A stretch of DNA of 64,000 nt from an uncultured bacterium (GTDB taxonomy: Bacteria > Cyanobacteriota > Vampirovibrionia > Gastranaerophilales > Gastranaerophilaceae). Location: contig CASERN010000011.1 of assembly GCA_949290355.1 (NCBI GenBank), forward strand, positions 558,001 through 622,000. The letters are read 5' to 3'. Of the stretch, positions 2,700-24,796 are shown in pieces; within the stretch, counting starts at the first letter, position 1, and each line of letters starts with the position of its first letter. The translations under genes and the position numbers were made by a program. The notes below the pieces were generated by a model. That model made no database searches, was not told where the DNA came from, and saw only the letters and a list, made by a program, of their open reading frames with translations.

Positions 2700-3271
2700 A
2701 AAGAATAGCTATTTGTGGAAATATTGCGTCAGGAAAATCGACTGTCCAAAAATTTTTGGAAGAAAAAGGATACAAAGTTTTGGATACTGATGTTGTTTCT
2801 CATAAACTTTTAACTGTAAAAAATAAAGATTTATATGAAGCATTTAAAAGCTATGATGTATTTAATAATAATGAATTTTCAAGATACAAGATAGCACAGT
2901 TGATTTTTTCAGATGAAGATGCAAGATTAAAAATTGCATCAATAATGCATCCGCAGGTCGCAGAGGAAATTAAGAAATTTTATGAAAATAATAAATCTGA
3001 AAAATTTCTATTTGTAGGTATTCCTTTACTTTTTGAAGCAAAAATGGAAGCATTGTTTGATAAAATAATTTTTGTGTATACAGATGATAATCTTCGATTG
3101 GAAAGATTATTAAAGAGAAACAATTATACATTAGAACATGCAAAAGCCAGAATAAAATCACAGATATCGCAAGATGAAAAAGTTAAAAAATCAGATTACA
3201 TAATAAATAATAATTCTGATATTGAAACTTTGAAAAAATCAGTAATAGAGTTATTAAGCATAATTTCTTGA
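2696..3271 (+). CDS. coaE: Dephospho-CoA kinase
   Basis: This 191-residue protein starts MKRIAICGNIASGKSTVQKF, a Walker A loop, and continues with KVLDTDVVSHKL, the conserved D-x-D substrate-binding region, and FVGIPLLFEAKME, typical of CoaE. It phosphorylates dephospho-CoA in the last step of CoA synthesis. The start is GTG at 2696 in a GTGA overlap with the upstream stop, so translation is probably coupled. The 3' end runs 18 bases into the convergent peptidase-like gene. Confidence 0.92.
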   Translation: MKRIAICGNIASGKSTVQKFLEEKGYKVLDTDVVSHKLLTVKNKDLYEAFKSYDVFNNNEFSRYKIAQLIFSDEDARLKIASIMHPQVAEEIKKFYENNKSEKFLFVGIPLLFEAKMEALFDKIIFVYTDDNLRLERLLKRNNYTLEHAKARIKSQISQDEKVKKSDYIINNNSDIETLKKSVIELLSIIS

Positions 3272-3859
3272 CACAGGGACAAATACTCTTGCTCCTGCTC
3301 TGATGTTCTTAGTAGTTCCATCACTATCAGCTTTTCCGTCTCCGCGGGTTATTTCTACGTGTCCGTATTTTCTGCTGTATCCTGACTGACCTTTGTCATA
3401 TACAAGTATGCAGCCCGCAGGCAGGTCTTTTAAATTTAGACCTTGAGTTGATATTTCTTTAAAGTTTGGATTATTTTCCAGGATCTCTGCACATTGATAT
3501 GCATTCCCAGATTTGTATTTTCCAAGATTTGCCTCAGAAATGGCATTTTTAACATATTTAGCACAATTGCCCGTGAAGCCTACAGTGTTTTTTTGTGCAA
3601 TTTTTGACAATTTTTCACCTTTTGCAGCACTGTATCCGACTTGTTTTAAAGATGCTAAAACTTTGGTGTTTGCACCTTTTGTGAAGTCTTTATTACCACT
3701 AAATAAAGTATTGTATAACTCAAAAATTCCTGTACCTGAATTCAGTGCAAAGCTAAAATTTGGGGTAAAATTATATGTATTAAAATACCCGAAATAGTTA
3801 ATAAAATTCGGAATATTATTGTAATTATCTAGATTATTGTTAATATTTATTAATCCCAT
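3254..3859 (-). CDS. CHAP/NlpC-like cysteine peptidase domain protein (paralogue 1)
   Basis: This 201-residue protein has an Asn/Tyr/Phe-rich first 45 residues without a normal signal peptide. Its C-terminal domain contains GNCAKYVKNAISEANLG (candidate catalytic Cys), LPAGCILVYDK, and YGHVEITRGDG (candidate catalytic His). Cys near a helix start plus a GHVEI strand is the layout of CHAP and NlpC/P60 peptidases, which cut peptidoglycan peptides. That function is inferred. The neighbour at 3933 shares NPNFKE, CA+YVKNAI, LPAGCI.VYDK and GHVEIT.GDG, so the pair is a tandem duplication. A GGGGA ribosome binding site precedes the ATG and a conserved promoter pattern lies upstream. Confidence 0.65.
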   Translation of the reverse strand: MGLININNNLDNYNNIPNFINYFGYFNTYNFTPNFSFALNSGTGIFELYNTLFSGNKDFTKGANTKVLASLKQVGYSAAKGEKLSKIAQKNTVGFTGNCAKYVKNAISEANLGKYKSGNAYQCAEILENNPNFKEISTQGLNLKDLPAGCILVYDKGQSGYSRKYGHVEITRGDGKADSDGTTKNIRAGARVFVPVSRNYA

Positions 3860-3883: not shown

Positions 3884-3916
3884 TTATATAAAGTATTTTG
3901 TTTTATAAAAATTGCT
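3884..3916 (-). promoter_or_regulatory. Conserved promoter pattern, copy A
   Basis: The reverse strand reads AGCAATTTTTAT, 14 bases, then TATATAA. The last element looks like a -10 box; the first is not a TTGACA -35. The same pattern at identical spacing lies upstream of the 3933 and 30621 genes. Confidence 0.55.
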
Positions 3917-3932: not shown

Positions 3933-4616
3933 TTATACAGGAATAAATGTATATGCTCTGTCGGATTCAGATATTTCATTATTTATAATATCGCTGCAAG
4001 CTCTTCCATCTCCAAGTGTAATTTCAACATGACCGTCTTTGCCATATCCTCCGTCAAATTTATCATATACAATTATACATCCGGCAGGGAGTTTAGAAAG
4101 TTCTTTGCCTGGAACATTTACTTCTTTGAAATTTGGATTTGCTCGAAGGATGTATTTGCAATATTCTCCATTGCCGTTGATATATGGCCCTAAACCGCTT
4201 TTTACTATAGCGTTTTTAACATATCTGGCGCAAAGAGGATTATATGGATCTCTGTTTGTAGGTAATCCTTCTAAAACATTTGCAGCAAGAATTTCACCTT
4301 TATTTTTATTATATTTTGCACCATATAATAATTCGGAATTTTGTGTTTCTTTTATTTTTGCAGTTAATACAAGTCTATCTGAAAGATTATCAGTTTCTTG
4401 TATATTGTGGTTATTATAAAATTGTCCGTTGAAATTGAATATTGAATTATTTTTGAGATTCTGATTGTATAAAGTATTTACAAATGGATTAAAGATATTA
4501 GTCGGAATTATAGAGTTTTGCACAAAACCAGTAATTGGGAATACATATTTTTGTGAAAATAAATTCATAAAAGGATTCATGCAGCATGTTGCATAGTTGT
4601 ATCCAAAATTTATCAC
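3933..4616 (-). CDS. CHAP/NlpC-like cysteine peptidase domain protein (paralogue 2)
   Basis: This 227-residue protein is a paralogue of the next gene downstream. The C-terminal domain has NPLCARYVKNAIVKSGLG (candidate Cys nucleophile), NPNFKEV, LPAGCIIVYDK and KDGHVEITLGDGRACSD (candidate His). The N-terminal 80 residues are rich in Asn, Phe and Tyr and are poorly conserved with the paralogue. A role in peptidoglycan peptide cleavage is inferred from the Cys/His layout. The start is GTG at 4616, with GGTAGG 8 bases upstream. Its own copy of the conserved promoter pattern lies at 4651-4683, so each paralogue is probably transcribed separately. Confidence 0.62.
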   Translation of the reverse strand: MINFGYNYATCCMNPFMNLFSQKYVFPITGFVQNSIIPTNIFNPFVNTLYNQNLKNNSIFNFNGQFYNNHNIQETDNLSDRLVLTAKIKETQNSELLYGAKYNKNKGEILAANVLEGLPTNRDPYNPLCARYVKNAIVKSGLGPYINGNGEYCKYILRANPNFKEVNVPGKELSKLPAGCIIVYDKFDGGYGKDGHVEITLGDGRACSDIINNEISESDRAYTFIPV

Positions 4617-4650: not shown

Positions 4651-4683
4651 TTATATAAAGTAAAGTAAGTTATAAAAATTGCT
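4651..4683 (-). promoter_or_regulatory. Conserved promoter pattern, copy B
   Basis: The reverse strand reads AGCAATTTTTAT, exactly 14 bases, then TATATAA, as in copy A. It lies about 35 bases before the GTG start of paralogue 2. Confidence 0.55.
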
Positions 4684-22403: not shown

Positions 22404-23342
22404 ATGGAGCAATTAAATTTTGATACAATTATTTTAGGTGGCGGACCTGCCGGGCTTTCTGCTGCAATATATGCTAGTAGAGGAGCTGTATCTACAGCTT
22501 TAATTGATATAAATATGTTAGGCGGACAACCTTCTAATTATCTGGAATTAGAAAATTATCCTGGATTTCAGGTTGTTGGTGGCTATGATCTTATGGAAAA
22601 ATTTGAAGAGCATGCGGATAAATTTGGTGTAAAAAAATATCCAATGCAGGAAATTCAAAGTGTTGATTTGAAAAACAAAATAATTTTAACTAATGAATAT
22701 GAATTCAGAGCAAAAACTATTATTATAGCAACAGGAGCTCAGCCTATGAAGTTAGGTGTTCCTGGCGAAAAAGAGTTTGTAGGTCGAGGTGTAAGTTACT
22801 GTGCTGTATGCGATGGAGCTTTTTATAAAAACAAAATTGTTGCTGTCGTAGGCGGTGGTAATGCTGCAGTAGAAGAAGCTATGTATTTAACCAAATTTGC
22901 GGATAAAGTTTATATTATTCACCGCAGAGATGAATTAAGAGCTGATAAAATTGTACAAGAAAGAGCTTTTAGAAATGAAAAAATTGAATTTATATGGAAT
23001 TCTGTCGTAAAAGAAATTAAAGGTGATAATCTTGTTGATACTGCGGTTTTAGAAAATGTTAAAACTAAAGAAATTTCAAATTTATCAGTAAATGGAGTAT
23101 TCCCTTATATTGGAATGACTCCAAATGTAGAAAATATTTCCGGGCAATTACAGCAAGATGCGAGAGGGTTTGTAGTTACTGATGAAACTATGGCTACATC
23201 TGTTGAAGGAGTATTTGCAATTGGGGATGTTAGAACAACCCCTTTGAGACAAGTGATTACTGCAGCTTCTGATGGTGCAGTAGGAGCTGTGTATGCTGTA
23301 AAATACTTAGAGGCTTTGAAAGAGAAAGTGTCAGTAAAATAA
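22404..23342 (+). CDS. trxB: Thioredoxin reductase
   Basis: This 312-residue flavoprotein has FAD-binding LGGGPAGLSAAIYASR, the redox disulfide CAVCDGAFYKNK, NADPH-binding VVGGGNAAVEEAMYL with HRRDELRAD, and FAIGDVRTTPLRQVITAASDGA. It reduces thioredoxin with NADPH. GAGGA precedes the ATG. A hairpin terminator follows at 23348. Confidence 0.95.
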   Translation: MEQLNFDTIILGGGPAGLSAAIYASRGAVSTALIDINMLGGQPSNYLELENYPGFQVVGGYDLMEKFEEHADKFGVKKYPMQEIQSVDLKNKIILTNEYEFRAKTIIIATGAQPMKLGVPGEKEFVGRGVSYCAVCDGAFYKNKIVAVVGGGNAAVEEAMYLTKFADKVYIIHRRDELRADKIVQERAFRNEKIEFIWNSVVKEIKGDNLVDTAVLENVKTKEISNLSVNGVFPYIGMTPNVENISGQLQQDARGFVVTDETMATSVEGVFAIGDVRTTPLRQVITAASDGAVGAVYAVKYLEALKEKVSVK

Positions 23343-23347
23343 CAGCT

Positions 23348-23381
23348 AAAAAGAGTAAATGTTAAATTTACTCTTTTTTTT
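23348..23381 (+). terminator. Terminator of trxB
   Basis: AAAAAGAGTAAAT-GTTAA-ATTTACTCTTTTTTTT starts five bases after the trxB stop. Confidence 0.88.
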
Positions 23382-23384
23382 GCC

Positions 23385-23410
23385 AAAAAAAAGTTGCCAT
23401 TTGAGGCAAC
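23385..23410 (-). terminator. Rho-independent terminator on the reverse strand
   Basis: The reverse strand has GTTGCC-TCAAAT-GGCAAC then TTTTTTTT. No reverse-strand gene ends here, so it supports an unannotated transcript. Confidence 0.75.
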
Positions 23411-23548
23411 ATTAAATAAACACGAGGATATTAAGAGAGAGAGTATAAAATAAACTTTTTTCTTTAATCTGGTTCAAACTATTTGAAGAACTTGATTAAT
23501 TTTTATTATTTGATGATTGATTTTTCCCTTTAGTAATTTGAAATTTCC
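23385..23548 (-). ncRNA. Candidate small RNA, about 160 nt, unknown function
   Basis: On the reverse strand AATACTTTATATAAG at about 23552-23566 matches the -10 region of promoter copy A, including the following AAGGGAAA. About 160 bases downstream GTTGCC-TCAAAT-GGCAAC is followed by eight T, a strong terminator at 23385-23410. No credible open frame lies between. Two AAGGGAAA motifs occur near the 5' end, and TTCAAA-TAG-TTTGAA could form a hairpin. A promoter and terminator without a gene suggest a small RNA; no known RNA family is recognised. Confidence 0.4.
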
Positions 23549-23680
23549 CTTACTCTTATATAAAGTATTTTTAATTTTGTAAATTTACTTTTTGGAATTA
23601 AATGTTACATTTTTGTTACATTAAATATATTATTGTCATATTACAAAATAAATGATATAATTTTCTAAAGAGAGTGGCAT

Positions 23681-24796
23681 ATGGTTGAAAACTATTTAAA
23701 TAACAAATTCAATATAATATCTTTTTTAAAAAAGGCAGTAGCAGTGGGAGCTTCTGATGTTCATTTACAAGTTGATGAGCATCCTGCTATTCGTATAGAT
23801 GGCAAAATAACCAAAGTTGACATGCCTATTTTGACAGAGGATGATATATCTATTGCTTATGATATACTTCTTCCTACTCATTTTAAAGGGAAAGTTAATT
23901 CAGTATTTGATTTAGATTTTGCTTATGAAATTCATGGAGTATCCCGATTCAGGGTAAACTTGAGTAGGCAATTAGGGAAAAGTGCTTTGGTAATAAGGAC
24001 TATTCCTTATAATATTAAAAAGGTTTCAGAATTGATGTTGCCTGAATCTATCGAGCAATTCGCAACATTAAATAACGGTCTTGTATTGATTACCGGTCCG
24101 ACTGGTTCTGGTAAATCTACAACAATCGCTTCTTTGATTGATTATGTTAATATAAATTATCCAAAACATATTATTACAATTGAGGATCCGGTTGAATTTA
24201 TTTTTACTAATAAAAAGTCTTTAGTTTCGCAACGTCAGGTATTAATTGATACACCATCTTTCCCTGATGGTATAAAATATGCATTAAGGCAGGATCCTGA
24301 TGTGATATTTATCGGGGAAATTAGAGATAGAGAAACTGTTACCGCAGCATTAAAAGCTTCTGAGACCGGTCATTTGGTTTTTGCAACAATCCATACGAAT
24401 GATGCTATTCAAACTGTCAATAGAATTGTAAACATGTATGAGCCATCAGATAGAGAATTCGTAAGAAGTCAATTGGCTTCTATATTAAGAGGTACTGTAT
24501 CTCAAAAATTGGTTCCTATTTCGAATGGTACAGGTAGAAGACCTGCTTGTGAAGTCTTGGTTGTAACTCCTACCGTAAAAGATTTTATTGAAAAAGACAA
24601 GCTTGAAGATATTTATGAATTGGTTAAAAAAGGTTCTTTCAATAATATGATTACAATGAATTCTTCATTATACAGATTATATGAACAGGGCTTGATCACA
24701 GAAGAAATAGCTATGTCTTATTCTGACAATAAAAATGAATTACAACAAATGTTTAGAGGAGTATTCCATGGGACATTCGGACCTTCTGGAATATAG
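23681..24796 (+). CDS. pilT: Type IV pilus retraction ATPase PilT
   Basis: This 371-residue protein has the PilT N-terminal domain (VGASDVHLQVDEHPAIRIDG), Walker A ITGPTGSGKSTTIA, Asp box ITIEDPVEFIF, Walker B DPDVIFIGEIRDRETV and His box GHLVFATIHTNDA. PilT hexamers power pilus retraction (twitching, DNA uptake). PilB-like assembly ATPases have longer N-terminal domains, so PilT is preferred. It stands apart from other pilus assembly genes; two pilin-like genes with G tracts lie elsewhere in the window. Confidence 0.9.
   Translation: MVENYLNNKFNIISFLKKAVAVGASDVHLQVDEHPAIRIDGKITKVDMPILTEDDISIAYDILLPTHFKGKVNSVFDLDFAYEIHGVSRFRVNLSRQLGKSALVIRTIPYNIKKVSELMLPESIEQFATLNNGLVLITGPTGSGKSTTIASLIDYVNINYPKHIITIEDPVEFIFTNKKSLVSQRQVLIDTPSFPDGIKYALRQDPDVIFIGEIRDRETVTAALKASETGHLVFATIHTNDAIQTVNRIVNMYEPSDREFVRSQLASILRGTVSQKLVPISNGTGRRPACEVLVVTPTVKDFIEKDKLEDIYELVKKGSFNNMITMNSSLYRLYEQGLITEEIAMSYSDNKNELQQMFRGVFHGTFGPSGI

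Follow-up and report, generated by a model that had tools for sequence, protein, structure and literature searches.

Gastranaerophilales-type bacteria are common non-photosynthetic cyanobacterial relatives in animal guts, and one of their genomes raises the question of whether an independent small RNA gene lies on the minus strand between trxB and pilT and, if so, what such an RNA would pair with. The window, i.e., the whole analysed stretch of 64,000 nucleotides, shows on that strand AATACTTTATATAAGAGTAAGGGAAA, followed about 160 nt on by GTTGCC-TCAAAT-GGCAAC-T8. An initial annotation had read this arrangement as a candidate regulatory RNA with promoter and terminator and no protein frame, possibly controlled together with the CHAP-like genes.

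The locus and the predicted sRNA-A gene

The features of the locus are listed below in window coordinates; the predicted RNA is named sRNA-A, and the names trxB and pilT are carried over from the initial annotation.

22404..23342 (+), trxB, convergent neighbour of sRNA-A
23385..23550 (-), predicted sRNA-A transcript, about 166 nt, its start placed from the promoter and its end from the terminator
23385..23410 (-), intrinsic terminator of sRNA-A, GTTGCC-TCAAAT-GGCAAC-T8, whose stem covaries across the family
23405..23435 (-), 31-bp core CTTAATATCCTCGTGTTTATTTAATGTTGCC common to the prophage junctions (attachment site)
23410..23447 (-), conserved unpaired block TATACTCTCTCTCTTAATATCCTCGTGTTTATTTAATG of sRNA-A, the proposed pairing region, antisense to sRNA-B
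23557..23565 (-), -10-like half CTTTATATA of the bipartite sRNA-A promoter
23580..23588 (-), upstream promoter half GTAAATTTA, a diverged G[GT][CA]AATTT separated by 14 nt from the -10-like half (consensus from column counts over 110 promoters)
23633-23661 (+), pilT's own promoter, TTGTCA-17-TATAAT
23681..24796 (+), pilT, divergent neighbour of sRNA-A

The elements named by the initial annotation are all in place. The -10 region AATACTTTATATAA at 23556-23569 (-) is identical to the copy at 3884-3897 (-), which precedes a CHAP-like gene, and is followed by AAGGGAAA; the terminator consists of GTTGCCTCAAATGGCAAC and a T run at 23410-23385 (-); and in the interval no ORF reaches 30 aa, with one 21-aa minus-strand TTG frame. 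Behind the -10-like half the window reads GAGTAAGGG and most relatives read TGTAAGGG. Moreover, trxB already has a plus-strand terminator-like hairpin just 3' of the gene (about 23345-23380, read directly), so that the minus-strand hairpin is an extra one. The hallmark of sRNA-A is a CU-rich block of about 26-38 nt, and 145-195 nt separate CTTTATATA from the terminator end, one junction (253 nt) being set aside. Folding of the consensus yields the terminator only, and the conserved block stays unpaired. Masking of the block by the 5' half, for which a complementary GGATATTAA is present in many own-genus copies, was rejected, yielding pairing that is not above shuffles (mean z +0.42 over 65 diverse copies, 0/65 at the 5% level).

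Taken by itself, the window provides weak evidence: it holds 11 near-matches to the 14-mer AATACTTTATATAA vs. 6.3 expected, a number reached by 7/100 shuffles, and 7 terminator-like sites in 7 kb vs. 2.5 +/- 1.8 expected. It is the comparison with other genomes that lifts sRNA-A above chance. The Rfam 15 covariance models, run against the window copy with E up to 10, gave best matches far below their gathering scores.

Conservation, covariation and non-coding character of sRNA-A

The conservation in close relatives and the covariance search that had been proposed as checks both speak for the gene. The 338-nt intergenic region has some match (E <= 0.001) in 33/33 genomes of the genus, and in 29/33 (the own genome and 28 relatives) the match is long and includes the conserved block; in G003 (L040) the block is confined to a phage junction, and the matches of G020, G023 and G025 are all short and lie in other parts of the region. 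At least 113 stretches of the genome_contigs collection, many titled Candidatus Gastranaerophilales, contain the 30-nt piece TTAATATCCTCGTGTTTATTTAATGTTGCC without a mismatch, and invariance inside this 30-mer is by construction, because the set was found by the exact 30-mer. Copies of the block pooled from several collections number 146, from 126 distinct contexts. A covariance model built from 39 copies and covering the 3' 80 nt matches 211/241 genomes of the order, and every listed matching row belongs to the window's own family; 8 own-family members are listed without a match, and the remaining 22 unmatched genomes comprise 12 shown as other families and 10 not listed. A renewed search of 30 genomes, 27 with diverged copies and 3 unmatched, recovered 28/30 at E <= 0.1, among them G160, whose weak model match (E 0.007) does not contain the block. 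Neither the genus search nor the model search requires the 30-mer, though the 39 training copies of the model carry it. In the model-found loci ATATCCTCGTGTTT is exact in 59/60. Two close sRNA-A copies lie in one genome at G225:C24:6963-7332, G249 has several over four contigs, and some of the G225 and G249 copies are at contig ends.

The terminator stem covaries. In diverged copies it becomes, for example, GTTTGC/GCAAAC, GTTTG/CAAAC or GCTTG/CAAGC; both partners vary in 5/7 pairs, 95.6% of cells are paired, and 59 cells carry two-sided changes (43 copies, 42 of them distinct). The covariation score is 0.556 vs. 0.165 in shuffled alignments (0/500 as high) and at most 0.104 when the alignment is slid; as the alignment had been fitted to the model, this comparison is tilted towards the structure. 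For two of five measures of covariation the value was not clear of shuffles, namely the number of pairs with two-sided changes (144/500) and of further pair types (24/500).

The gene neighbourhood, conversely, changes. In the genus loci (n=29), pilT is nearby in 27 and trxB in 21; in the exact-match set, among the matches listed, pilT is near 58/113 and trxB near 33/113. Among copies with 1.2 kb of flanking sequence on both sides, neither gene is near 2/28 genus copies, 24/63 genome_contigs copies among the matches listed, and 28/48 model-found copies. An ORF of at least 20 aa runs through the block in just 23/138 copies, in two different frames, and a coding peptide was rejected, since the window's 21-aa TTG frame across the block is not conserved. 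The changing neighbours and the few ORFs through the block therefore argue that sRNA-A is probably neither a leader or trailer of a neighbour nor a peptide gene. In its sequence sRNA-A shows the traits of a trans-acting base-pairing sRNA gene, with a promoter-like element and an intrinsic terminator of its own, no coding frame, independence of its neighbours and a conserved unpaired segment for pairing. Given the family-wide conservation, the covarying terminator, the absence of a conserved frame and the varied neighbours, the regulatory RNA reading of the initial annotation is upheld at the level of comparative sequence, and sRNA-A is very probably a small RNA gene. It appears to be a previously undescribed RNA, without an Rfam match and conserved in one Gastranaerophilales-type family; among search entries for the literature on Gastranaerophilales, Gastranaerophilaceae, Melainabacteria and Vampirovibrionia, no such RNA was found described.

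A predicted antisense partner and a third predicted RNA

Two further predicted RNA loci are related to the sRNA-A block.

G000:C11:759559-759697 (+), predicted sRNA-B locus, the second conserved locus, with promoter TATATACTTTATATATATG
G000:C11:492691-492881 (+), predicted sRNA-C locus, flanked by a thioredoxin-like gene and folE2, with a sigma-70 gene close by

The first (5') part of sRNA-B is a near-perfect antisense of the sRNA-A block. In typical relatives, sRNA-B reads CATTAAATAAACAC[A/G]AGGATATTAA[A/G]AGAGAG, then TTCCTATTCCTACCTTCCT, then a terminator of variable sequence, and it has a conserved C-rich segment and a terminator of its own. The predicted A-B duplex reaches -40.9 kcal/mol in the own genome and -31.6 to -47.3 kcal/mol in 20 genus loci, each time unequalled by shuffles (0/100); likeness to the sRNA-A region is what had led to these loci, and they were paired with one typed consensus block, so that 20/20 is not an unbiased rate. 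For L426, one more locus of the genus, to which the promoter pattern had led, the predicted duplex is -45.5 kcal/mol, with 0/100 shuffles as good. Of the genomes sampled from the order, the sRNA-B model matched 130/241, including 23/23 of the genus; the overall count is an upper bound, as some weak matches are the antisense strand of sRNA-A loci; among 20 fetched model loci, 3 (L299-L301) were only the reverse of sRNA-A loci, and the disrupted sRNA-B of L186 was excluded before the counts. In other genera, A-B pairing is strong in 7/17 loci (g22 twice, g15, g10, g6, g3 and g4; k=0/200, z -6.1 to -10.3), moderate in 5/17 (g2 three times, g21 and g11; z -2.6 to -3.5) and weak in g23 and g29 (11/200 and 12/200), and the antisense to the sRNA-A block is absent in 3/3 sRNA-B loci of g18. 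Since the block persists in g18 without this antisense, sRNA-A must have other partners. Taken together, the complementarity suggests that sRNA-B probably acts as a sponge of sRNA-A.

sRNA-C is matched in 33/33 genus genomes. Its promoter and start read TAGCAATTTTTT...TTTTATATAATTATAAAGCTCTCTCTTCTTATTTAAACGGATA with the terminator directly 3', GCTCTCTCTTCTTATTTAAAC is identical in all 30 loci read, and its CU-rich segment is related to the sRNA-A block. sRNA-B often has a second element, CCGTTTAAATAAGAGAGAG, that resembles an antisense of sRNA-C. Within the genus, B-C pairing is weak (z -0.5 to -3.2); it is stronger in several other genera, with k 0-2/200 in 10/17 loci, a result obtained with the own-genus sRNA-C sequence.

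A shared bipartite promoter class

The promoter of sRNA-A belongs to a bipartite class, GCAATTTT-N14-CTTTATATA. The pattern GCAATTTTN{10,24}CTTTATATA has 8 matches in the whole genome, all with a 14-nt spacer, and 0 in the reversed control; the sRNA-A promoter of the window, with its diverged upstream half GTAAATTTA, is not among these 8 exact sites. Two promoters of the class precede genes of the window.

3885..3915 (-), upstream of the CHAP gene 3254-3859 (-), Pfam CHAP E 8.5e-07
4652..4682 (-), upstream of the CHAP-like gene 3933-4616 (-), CHAP E 0.02, below the Pfam cut-off

The ORFs behind the other six sites (L307-L311, L314; G000 C4, C8 and C11) encode 94-447 aa, and none has a Pfam family that passes the cut-off. 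In several the start is rich in N/G/F/Y, and no signal peptide is obvious by eye.

Over 110 sRNA-A promoters, the bases A, A, T and T at -20 to -17 before CTTTATATA are present in 109, 109, 108 and 103, G stands at -23 in 97, and TGTAAG follows CTTTATATA. Because a loose match to CTTTATATAA.TGTAAGGGA, in the -10 half, had served to anchor the copies, the upstream half alone counts as an independent observation; the loci L010, L048, L059 and L074 were excluded beforehand as junctions. The common control with the CHAP-like genes proposed in the initial annotation accordingly stands for the promoter sequence, with the AATT core at the distance from CTTTATATA seen in the CHAP promoters, and stands for that level only. 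The same arrangement recurs at the other RNA genes: G-x-AATT lies at the same place in 18/20 sRNA-B loci, and the same 31-nt layout is found in 30/30 sRNA-C promoters, with L266 and L270 left unscored because the pattern did not fit. The pilT promoter, unlike this class, is an ordinary TTGTCA-17-TATAAT.

A sigma-70 family factor (regions 1.2, 2 and 3) is encoded close to sRNA-C (L349:2-787 (-), G000:C11 about 491.3-492.1 kb), with a match in 30/30 genus loci, and is a candidate reader of the GCAATTTT-N14-CTTTATATA promoters. A short palindrome, TTTGTAACAAA, lies about 50 nt before the sRNA-B -10 (L177-L196), and its TGTAACA is also present upstream of many sRNA-A copies; it is possibly the site of a shared regulator.

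Prophages at the block

Prophages integrate inside the sRNA-A block and supply another terminator. The contig C14 (G000, L008-L010; 41,722 bases) opens in a foreign sRNA-A, with promoter and block, and closes in a second block copy, behind which lies, in our own reading, an apparent reversed trxB end. Its phage genes include an integrase, a terminase, a connector, a tail gene, an endolysin and a reverse transcriptase, and the integrase adjoins the attachment core CTTAATATCCTCGTGTTTATTTAATGTTGCC, which is present at both prophage ends (G000:C14). The head-tail connector matches PF12236, one ORF is 2929 aa long, and the reverse transcriptase (phrog_1423) is possibly part of a diversity-generating retroelement. 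As the flanks of C14 differ from those of the window copy, the contig was probably misbinned from a related strain. Overall, a phage-like 5' junction is found in 11/146 block copies (9 distinct contexts), and an integrase lies in the examined sequence in 9/11 junctions, namely C14 and eight others at 47-99% identity, one of which is an IMG/VR contig. At the junction the phage end contributes a terminator loop and a second stem half of its own. This core also serves in L048 and, in G012, at the sRNA-B locus (L186).

Candidate mRNA targets

The pattern CTTTATATAN{4,34}AAGAGAGAG has 46 matches in the 33 genus genomes and 0 in the control; sorted by hand, 14 fall in sRNA-B and 32 in the leader of one conserved protein of 86-95 aa. 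These 32 are distributed over 31/33 genomes, with the ORF read in 26, and make the GA-rich leader of this gene of about 94 aa the best candidate target of sRNA-A. The protein family begins MLPTTxESNNNTxGNGQFGSLLRKR... (L405-L434; G000:C8:40423), and the own copy has no Pfam match. In the 7/26 leaders compared, pairing with sRNA-A or sRNA-C is mostly not beyond dinucleotide shuffles (for sRNA-A, z -0.8 to -2.0, with one leader alone at 2/100), and some unrelated leaders of the window pair with sRNA-A as well as this one does. For the leaders of pilT and trxB, which were rejected as targets, no convincing conserved pairing was found. A search of the genome for antisense targets of the long block, with up to 3 mismatches over 25 nt, found sRNA-A copies alone, and ATATNAAGAGAGAG, allowing at most 2 mismatches, shows no clear enrichment (53+46 vs. 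41+44 in the control).

A regulatory model, its alternatives and its precedents

The model that we favour, with a fair degree of likelihood, is that of a pairing regulator with a sponge. sRNA-A would be a trans-acting base-pairing sRNA of one Gastranaerophilales-type family, transcribed from a bipartite promoter that would also drive the CHAP-like and other small-protein genes, and its transcription would end at the intrinsic terminator. The unpaired CU-rich block may pair with GA-rich, Shine-Dalgarno-like mRNA leaders and block their translation, and the 5' antisense of sRNA-B, whose complementarity is read from the genomes, may titrate sRNA-A as a sponge. The full circuit, in which the CU-rich RNAs A and C and the dual sponge B are joined by one promoter class with small proteins and CHAP-like hydrolases, and in which prophages rewire the sRNA-A block by a different terminator, is put forward tentatively, as an extension that may well not hold. 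If it were true, the same regulator would make both the brake and its release, and the prophages would strike the heart of the circuit, the sRNA-A pairing block.

Since A-B pairing is symmetric, the two RNAs could instead be an antisense pair that mainly act on each other, with sRNA-B as the regulator and sRNA-A as its sponge. The conserved UUCCUAUUCCUACCUUCCU of sRNA-B could bind Shine-Dalgarno sequences, AGGA, GGAG, GAGG or AAGG stands before the start in 25/39 inspected genes of the window, and the C-rich segment and terminator of sRNA-B suit a regulator as well. This assignment of roles is nonetheless unlikely, given that the sRNA-A block is better conserved than the sRNA-B antisense and stays in g18 where that antisense is missing, which fits other partners of sRNA-A.

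Action chiefly through a protein, either by CsrA-like titration on the GGA-containing 5' half or through an RNA-binding protein that reads the CU block, would account for a conserved block longer than a short seed needs and for a 5' half that by eye is purine-rich with repeated GGGA or GGA; yet this half is poorly conserved and the existence of the antisense partner sRNA-B points to RNA pairing, which leaves such a mode of action quite improbable. Even less credit is due to the block being mainly a DNA site, for phage attachment or protein binding, and not part of a functional RNA. Prophages do recombine in the block, in the 11/146 copies described above, and their core is found again in the sRNA-B locus (L186; L048), but a phage site alone leaves the fixed upstream promoter half, the covarying terminator and the varied gene neighbours unexplained, and attachment would not select for conservation in the host.

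The preferred reading of sRNA-A as a pairing regulator with sRNA-B as its sponge has parallels in other bacteria. RsaE is a C-rich Firmicutes sRNA that pairs with mRNA targets. The C-rich Firmicutes sRNAs RoxS, FsrA and CsfG are described as pairing with mRNAs via a pyrimidine-rich segment (PMC8216469); sRNA-A shares such a segment, proposed for mRNA pairing, whereas its block is longer, differs in sequence and has no Rfam match. The same paper presents RosA of Bacillus subtilis as a stand-alone sponge sRNA of RoxS and FsrA, whose purine-rich regions complement the pyrimidine-rich target-binding regions of the two sRNAs, and RsaI of S. aureus as a sponge precedent beside it (PMC8216469). Compared by mode of action, sRNA-B resembles RosA in carrying antisense to A and often to C; unlike RosA, described there with G-rich regions, its antisense is near-continuous over about 30-40 nt. 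A C-rich segment like that of sRNA-B is reported there for RsaI and not for RosA (PMC8216469). As to the phages, the prophage phiOXC141 integrates in csRNA3 of Streptococcus pneumoniae at attB-OXC, keeping the host promoter and swapping the 3' stem-loop to give an altered sRNA (PMC9764711). The prophages at sRNA-A likewise lie inside the sRNA gene, with the host promoter kept and the 3' stem-loop swapped; in contrast to csRNA3, the sRNA, the host and the target are others, and the attachment core lies in the proposed sRNA-A pairing block and the first stem half.

For the biology of these gut bacteria, sRNA-A, conserved almost letter for letter in most of a family, together with its antisense RNA and its promoter class, opens the gene control of the group to testing, and sRNA-A itself is a ready marker for the group. 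Lastly, prophage attachment in the sRNA-A block would add a case, beside the pneumococcal csRNA3, of phages that touch a host sRNA gene.
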